Part shown: one piece after another, positions 20,011 to 21,444 of the stretch
Layout of the letters: each line of letters begins with the position of its first letter
Numbering within the stretch: the first letter of the stretch is position 1
Assembly: GCA_947589095.1 (NCBI GenBank)
Contig: CANQBX010000027.1
Location: 1 to 44,151 of the forward strand
Source: an uncultured Lachnospiraceae bacterium
Lineage (GTDB): Bacteria > Bacillota > Clostridia > Lachnospirales > Lachnospiraceae
DNA length: 44,151 nucleotides
Direction of reading: 5' to 3'
The notes under the pieces: model-generated
Told to the model about the DNA's origin: nothing
Databases searched by the model: none
What the model saw: only the letters and a program-made list of their open reading frames with translations
Position numbers and translations under genes: made by a program

Positions 20011-21444
20011 TCACCCAAGCAGCTGCTCTTCCATTCTCAACAGTTGGTTGTATTTCGCCACCCGGTCAGTGCGGCAGGGCGCGCCGGTCTTGATCTGGCG
20101 TGCGTTCGTCGCTACCGCGATGTCAGCGATGATCGAGTCCTCCGTCTCGCCGGAACGGTGGGAAATGATCGTGCCGAAGCCGGCCCGTTTCGCCATCTCG
20201 ATCGCCTCGAAGCTTTCCGTCAGCGTGCCGATCTGGTTCACCTTCACCAGGATCGCGTTGCCGGCGCCCAGTTCGATTCCTTTCTTAAGACGCTCCGTAT
20301 TCGTGACAAAAAGGTCATCTCCCACCAACTGGATCCGGCCTCCGAGTGCCTCCGTCAGCATCTGCCAGCCTTCCCAGTCCTCCTCGTGAAGTCCATCCTC
20401 GATCGATACGATCGGGAAATGATCCACCAGCCGCTCATAATACGCCACCATCTCCTGCGCTGTCCGCTGAACTTTCACGCCACTCATCTTTCCCTCGCCA
20501 CTCGGCTTGCTCTCACTACTTATCTTACTCTCGCCGCTCATCTCACTCTCGCCGCTCGGCTTGCTCTCGCCGCTCATCTCACTCTCGCCGCTCGGCTTGC
20601 TCTCGCTACTTATCTTGCTCTCTCCACTCGGCTTACTCTCGCTGCTCATCTTACTTTCACCCGGGAAAAAATAGGTGCCGGAAACTTCGTCGTAAAGCTC
20701 ACTGGAGGCTGCGTCAAGCGCGATGGCGATCTGCTCACCAGGTTTATAGCCGCTGAGTTTGATCGCGTCTACCATATAACTTAATACTTCTTCCGCATCT
20801 TTGAGATCCGGCGCGAAGCCGCCCTCGTCGCCGACGGCGGTGGAATATCCGGATGTTTTCAGTACCTTCTTCAGCGTATGGTAGATCTCGGCGCACATGC
20901 GCAGTCCTTCGGAGAAGCAGCGGGCGCCGACGGGCATGATCATAAATTCCTGCAGATCCACCGTATTGTCCGCATGGACGCCTCCGTTTAAGATATTCAT
21001 CATCGGCACCGGAAGCTCCCACGCGCCGACGCCGCCCAGATAGCGGTACAGCGGGATCTGCAGCTGACTCGCCGCGGCGCGGGCCACGGCCATGGAGACG
21101 CTGAGGATTGCATTGGCTCCAAGCTTCGCCTTATTGTCGGTGCCGTCGGTTTCCTTAAGGATCGTGTCGATGCGGCGCTGGTTTAAGGCGCTCTCAAAGG
21201 CGATGGCATCTGCAAGAACCGTGTTCACATGCTCTACGGCTTGCAGCACGCCTTTGCCGCCGTAGCGGATCCCGCCGTCTCGAAGTTCAACGGCCTCGAA
21301 TCTGCCGGTGGACGCGCCGGACGGAACCGCCGCACGGCCGCTGGCGCCGCCTTCCAGCTTTACCTCCGCCTCTACCGTCGGATTGCCGCGGGAATCCAGG
21401 ATCTCGCGTGCGCGGACTTCGGTGATCTCGAATTTGTCGTACAT
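20011..21444 (-). CDS. eno: Enolase with a tandem-repeat insertion
   Basis: A 477-residue enolase, converting 2-phosphoglycerate to phosphoenolpyruvate in glycolysis; the family is normally about 430. Catalytic and metal residues are intact: [26 protein letters not shown] (E207), [32 protein letters not shown] (K401) and [10 protein letters not shown]. The extra length is a run of ten six-residue units (residues ~262-322, pattern GESKPS / SESKIS / GESEMS) in the surface loop before the EEMVAYYE helix, where other enolases have only a short turn. The open frame starts 19 codons earlier, but AGGAGG lies 9 bases before the ATG at 21444. It lies 72 bases downstream of pheT. Confidence 0.97.
20479..20661 (-). 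repeat. 18-base in-frame minisatellite inside eno
   Basis: About ten 18-base units, seen on the plus strand as variants such as CTCTCGCCGCTCGGCTTG and CTCTCGCCGCTCATCTCA. Units alternate between a PS-type (KPSGES) and an IS/MS-type ([12 protein letters not shown]), so the true period may be 36 bases. All units keep the reading frame. The near identity of neighbouring units suggests recent slippage expansion. Confidence 0.9.

Follow-up and report, generated by a model that had tools for sequence, protein, structure and literature searches.

The enolase gene of the window (the whole 44,151-nucleotide stretch of DNA analysed here, from an uncultured Lachnospiraceae bacterium) carries ten 18-base units in tandem and in frame, and our analysis confirmed that this array is real and lies in an otherwise intact enolase. 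Enolase is a textbook conserved enzyme. The account that we consider probable is an ancestral in-frame expansion, likely followed by collapse in two relatives (G017 and G012), tolerated by the enzyme and kept by purifying selection. The original prediction, which had proposed an actively slipping surface loop with a possible part in adhesion or immune recognition, is partly supported as a whole.

The enolase gene and its array

The features of the gene, all on the minus strand, are as follows.

20014..21444, minus strand: eno (enolase), 477 residues, ATG at 21444 and stop at 20011-20013 (translation, Pfam, own-genome search, PDB matches)
20482..20661, minus strand: 18-base array of ten units, residues 262-321 (TRF, unit split, pLDDT <50 for residues 266-319)
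20644..20661, minus strand: GESKMS, the first unit, which shares its register with the lone native unit of the 22 congeners without an array (from comparing the loops of 25 congeners)
20536..20607, minus strand: units 4-5 and 6-7, two 36-base copies with 35 of 36 bases alike (lag-2 unit comparison, 17/18 and 18/18)
20671..20697, minus strand: LYDEVSGTY, residues 250-258, at the place of the pneumococcal FYDKERKVY (sequence; placed by the shared Y-D and the following Y)

Pfam assigned Enolase_N (PF03952, E 4.3e-55) and Enolase_C (PF00113, E 4.6e-121), with the Enolase_C match falling into two stretches, and the best solved-structure match, by sequence as well as by fold, was Bacillus subtilis enolase (4a3r). 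A search of the window's own genome returned this eno as the only enolase, plus one weak compositional match (E 6.3e-4), which lies on another repeat array in a different protein. According to passages of a study of S. aureus enolase, its magnesium ligands are Asp244, Glu291 and Asp318 (PMC4667285). Our own mapping from this numbering, with an offset of 58 after the array, places them at D244, E349 and D376 of the window enolase, all in invariant columns among 40 enolases, in agreement with the earlier claim that the catalytic residues are intact. Judged by its domains and metal-ligand positions, the predicted protein is an enolase, and the sole one found in its genome.

TRF on the window reported the array at 20478-20655 with a period of 18, 9.9 copies and a score of 160, and a period of 54 scored 209. 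The best of 300 codon shuffles of the enolase ORF scored only 64, so the array is not a product of chance. Translation and TRF together bear out ten six-residue in-frame units in one loop; the span first proposed, 20479-20661, does hold the array but includes one flanking glycine codon too many. The units had also been described as nearly identical, which does not hold: one of the 45 DNA pairs among the ten units is identical, and the mean pairwise identity is 0.698, a figure computed with one flanking non-unit counted as an eleventh.

AlphaFold modelling with 40 aligned enolases gave a mean pLDDT of 83.6, and the only stretch of at least three residues with pLDDT below 50 was 266-319, which predicts an intact enolase fold and a disordered array. 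Catalytic loop 3 of S. aureus enolase spans residues 249-269, and passages of the same study describe no conformational change of this loop between its structures (PMC4667285). Because the window numbering matches that of S. aureus up to this point (Asp244 in both), we place the start of the array inside catalytic loop 3. The description of a surface loop was thus right in that one loop is expanded, but by this numbering it understated the position.

Unit number, age and ancestry of the array in the genus

Enolase was found in 25 of 26 genomes of the genus, with no match found in G014 (a 93% complete genome). Three of the 25 carry the array; in the other 22 a lone unit occupies its position. 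The window has ten units, G013 nine and G021 eight, and the arrays of the latter two differ in length by exactly one unit. The check originally suggested, counting units in the eno of relatives, therefore does reveal different numbers (10, 9, 8 and 1); with one genome per species in the comparison, these counts compare species, not strains. The single-unit loops of the 22 array-less congeners, e.g. FPGESKMSG or FPGESRMRG, hold the unit in the same register, so the repeated unit matches a segment of the enolase's own loop that has been multiplied.

The units look long diverged. No two are identical among 36 pairs in G013 or 28 in G021, and between-unit pS/pN is 0.70/0.16 in the window, 0.48/0.25 in G013 and 0.53/0.25 in G021, the pairs not being independent. 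Between G013 and G021 the array differs by five silent and two replacement changes (dS 0.25, dN 0.017), and eno outside the array gives a dS of 0.30 and a dN of 0.010. A neutral simulation yielded two or fewer replacements of seven in 0.3-1.3% of runs, a test that draws on only seven changes with the gap placed to minimise differences; applied to the four changes outside the ambiguous units near the gap, it gave 1.7-5.4%. The array thus looks like an old in-frame expansion that was later held in composition. We propose purifying selection on it, since the array must stay soluble and outside the active site. The 36-base duplication of units 4-5 and 6-7 may be a recent event, the most recent-looking in the array. 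Active slippage, as first proposed, is not supported, given the single identical pair, the excess of pS over pN and the mostly silent differences between G013 and G021.

With the loop removed, the eno tree joined the window with the array-less G017 and G012 (support 81/76 with 26 rows, 55/32 with 10 rows); this tree requires two or more changes of the array trait, and a clade uniting the array-bearers remained compatible with eno alone (p-AU 0.36 and 0.40). A tree of pheT, eno and rnr with 11 rows, several of them with partial or missing pheT or rnr (contig ends or not included), recovered the same three genomes with support of 99/99, and the array-bearer clade was rejected (p-AU 0.040, and 0.016 without eno). 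Since the window sits with G017 and G012 in the species trees, the history requires either one gain with a later collapse or two separate expansions of this native unit, one in the window's line and one in the line of G013 and G021. Two gains, which would be compatible with tolerance, draw on this topology and on starting material (a GES-M unit) that exists in array-less relatives, and we regard them as possible but doubtful. Over a common 28-base run, however, the codons that replace ATG (ATA and CCG) are shared by the window and G021 arrays and come in one order in both, and G017 and G012 keep after the first unit an AGC serine codon that is found in the arrays too. The test of the shared run is weak, shuffling of codons within unit columns matching it in 70 of 2000 trials for G021 and 1348 of 2000 for G013. 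A single gain is the history that we favour in our judgement, short of proof of a single origin.

Gene conversion from a G013-like donor was also considered as a source of the array. At informative sites up to 100 bases either side of the array junction the window is G017-like at 11 of 14, and over the whole of eno it is G017-like at 71, G013-like at 26 and other at 5. Because the junction and gene sites are mostly G017-like, no wide tract was transferred around the array, and we rejected this candidate. Between 100 and 300 bases upstream of the junction, four sites are G013-like, none G017-like and two other, which may reflect a small separate tract or shared ancestry there.

Other tandem arrays in the genus and other inserts in the same loop

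We surveyed tandem repeats with TRF (period at least 6, score at least 60) in 13 of the 26 genomes, taking a sample of 83-400 kb per genome. Arrays per Mb were 67.5 in the window's genome (G000), 110 in G013, 90 in G017, 150 in G023, 190 in G015 and 95 in G016 on the array-rich side, and 60 in G019, 20 in G018, 41 in G007, 12 in G001, 20 in G005, 60 in G006 and 15 in G009 among the rest. Arrays with a 21-base period, which are of the coiled-coil type, are part of this density: they make up 8 of the 27 arrays in G000, and without them its value is 47.5, below G006 (50) and G019 (60). A second filter, chosen after the first table had been seen, dropped the 21-base period and raised the score to at least 100. 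The densities were then 35 in G000, 65 in G013, 40 in G017, 60 in G023, 130 in G015, 50 in G019 and 90 in G016, against 10 in G018, G006 and G009 and 0 in G007, G001 and G005. Minisatellites are therefore commoner in seven sampled genomes of the genus, including the window's, than in six others, and in the context of this array-rich lineage the enolase looks like a conspicuous example of a more widespread tendency.

Of the G000 arrays, 25 are clear of the stretch ends; a longest-ORF proxy contains 22 of these, and 19 of the 22 have a period divisible by three. When ten array-bearing ORFs (nine from the sample, one from the window) were given to Pfam, several proved to be surface or membrane proteins. 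A glycogen debranching enzyme (L165:4422-6962, G000:C15) has two in-frame arrays, one within its catalytic domain. A 531-residue ORF (L002:1479-3074, G000:C83) ends in a C-terminal 36-base array of 5.2 copies with 93% matches; it is much more uniform than the array in enolase and the stronger candidate for a VNTR. In the window itself, a 906-residue ORF at 3991-6711 without a Pfam match at E 0.001 contains an 18-base, 4.1-copy array at 6001-6073. RNase R (rnr, window 17088-19400) is encoded downstream of eno, and its linker is lengthened to a varying extent in the window, G013, G021 and G017; the extension is shorter in G010 and absent from G023 and G016. In this comparison the G012 contig ends before rnr, and G015, G019 and G020 were not included.

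A lost repair gene was tried as the cause of the many arrays. The MutS1 model exceeded its cut-off in 22 of the 26 congeners, with partial matches in G013, G021 and G020 and, in G019, only a weak match to model positions 493-820 that resembles the second matches of other genomes. RecJ exceeded its cut-off in 20 of 26 and was matched in 22, among them all 11 of the good genomes. Neither loss explains the arrays, since the array-rich G000, G017, G023, G015 and G016 keep both genes.

Across the family, 317 of the 397 genomes drawn match the array-less enolase of G017 (P0002). Loop surplus over P0002 was taken by eye from match lengths among the matches listed plus 165 further handles, the rows not being recounted and G114, G175, G221 and G301 (weak matches) and several fragments being set aside. 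Besides the window, a surplus of at least 40 residues over the 55 of P0002 occurs, among the matches listed, in G232 (~126), G357 (~58) and G403 (~48); G265 has ~36 (from coordinates), and elsewhere in the family the surplus among the matches listed is at most ~28. Where coordinates place the inserts of G232, G357 and G403, TRF reported no array, and neither these three nor the insert of G265 are 18-base arrays. Non-repeat inserts in the enolase loop were noted in other genera at L252 (G232), L254 (G357), L263 (G403), L255, L256, L260 and L262. The three largest (L252, L254 and L263) are rich in cysteine with CxC motifs, and a YEAG- or YETG-like motif is common to six of the seven and absent from L263. 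It is conceivable, but in our estimate improbable, that catalytic loop 3 is a recurrent site of diversification in the family, where unrelated inserts were gained several times and kept, perhaps as a docking face for partners or for enolase-binding phage proteins.

Not every genome of the family returned an enolase. No match was found in 22 of 150 and 80 of 397 family genomes, or in 16 of 126 and 57 of 320 of those of good quality, and passages of a report on Butyrivibrio proteoclasticus describe it as lacking an identifiable enolase (PMC2914790). In a genome listed as one contig (G256:C1), enolase matches lie ~85 kb apart, at L251 and 2648353-2648808, an arrangement that reads as a split or rearranged gene.

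What the long loop may do

By residue numbering, the array begins directly behind the position that the plasminogen motif takes in streptococcal enolase. In pneumococcal enolase this motif is FYDKERKVY, and D250, K251, E252 and K254 are said to be critical in passages of PMC6585157. The motif lysines are absent from LYDEVSGTY, its counterpart in our own alignment, and the window enolase ends in EEQLLG, without C-terminal lysines. Both sequence features of plasminogen-binding enolases are thus missing. Nothing was found to back the suggestion of adhesion, and neither adhesion nor immune variation through the array finds support here.

We infer that tolerance rather than a gained function accounts for the array, the best-supported reading being an expansion that is tolerated and kept soluble and in frame. 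This is favoured because close relatives have a single unit, unit numbers differ, and the net charge varies among the three arrays (-4, +2 and +1). The existence of close relatives without the array fits tolerance, and would also fit a dispensable function. Room for function is left by the few replacement changes within the array and by the unlike inserts that other genera have at this site, of which three are long and rich in cysteine. The long loop could then have a selected job, as a flexible Ser-rich arm for a partner, in regulatory modification, or in active-site opening or oligomer state. Structural matches to 9no4 (Csm/AcrIIIA2/enolase) and 9no2 (RibD-enolase), which point to partner-bound enolase by title only, lean the same way; the literature searched, with incomplete journal coverage, returned none on AcrIIIA2 with enolase. 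Yet G017 and G012 cope with one unit, the charge is not conserved, and purifying selection for mere solubility would yield the same pattern of changes, so we regard a selected job as unlikely.

Still less probable is a contingency locus, phase- or antigen-variable, in which switching of unit number within populations would alter a surface-displayed enolase. Unit number does vary among the three species, one 36-base duplication is almost exact, and some bacteria display enolase on their surface, as passages of PMC4667285 and PMC6585157 relate. However, the array lacks the nearly identical units of a phase-variable or VNTR locus, the known plasminogen sites are absent, and units of whole codons cannot turn the gene off by a frame shift; we consider this reading very unlikely. 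That the array arose by assembly error or a collapsed repeat, for which the draft state of the genomes speaks (the window's is in 192 contigs), is hardly credible: three different genomes carry arrays of different, diverged units, always in frame, which argues against the artefact that had been named as a refutation. The exact number of units could still be wrong.

Several known systems resemble the tolerated expansion in part. Coding minisatellites and VNTRs of bacteria are best known in surface and low-complexity proteins. They share with the enolase array the in-frame tandem units and whole-unit differences, but here the array sits in an active-site loop of a core enzyme and its units are diverged. 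In passages of PMC6585157, Mycoplasma hyopneumoniae enolase, a cell surface adhesin by the paper's title, likewise has lineage-specific, charged and exposed loops with the fold kept; these lie at S3/H3, H6/S6 and H7/H8, however, and those passages mention no tandem array. The EWGWS pentapeptide of Plasmodium falciparum enolase is also a lineage-specific insert, but its five residues are at 104-108 (PMC5494301), in another part of the protein and without a repeat. Rickettsia palindromic elements in metabolic genes likewise add an in-frame extra peptide to conserved genes, but those described in passages of PMC10969869 are ~150-base and palindromic, whereas the window array consists of direct 18-base units matching the gene's own sequence and is not of this type. 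No inverted repeat of at least 12 was found in 20440-20700, and the RNA of the array folds no better than shuffles (z 0.63). Among the titles listed in literature searches with incomplete journal coverage, none concerned tandem repeats in an enolase loop or coding minisatellites in core enzymes.

Under the account of a tolerated ancestral expansion, the order of events may be pictured as follows. The loop after the strand ending FPGE would originally have held one GESKMSG-like segment, whose 18 bases were duplicated head to tail and in frame in an ancestor within the genus, presumably as a tolerated by-product in a lineage where short tandem duplications abound. Further duplications and deletions, of one unit or several at a time, would have brought it to 8-10 units, and G017 and G012 probably collapsed back to one. 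Catalytic loop 3 would thereby have gained a disordered, hydrophilic extension rich in Ser, Glu and Lys, with the barrel and active site left intact, and purifying selection would now keep this extension in frame and preserve most of its composition.

For this group, the length of an insert in a core enzyme should be put down to misassembly only after relatives have been checked. With the fold apparently kept, the natural series of 1, 8, 9 and 10 units lends itself to testing how much disordered sequence a catalytic loop can bear, and whether expansions of this kind are debris that the enzyme tolerates or acquire a function.
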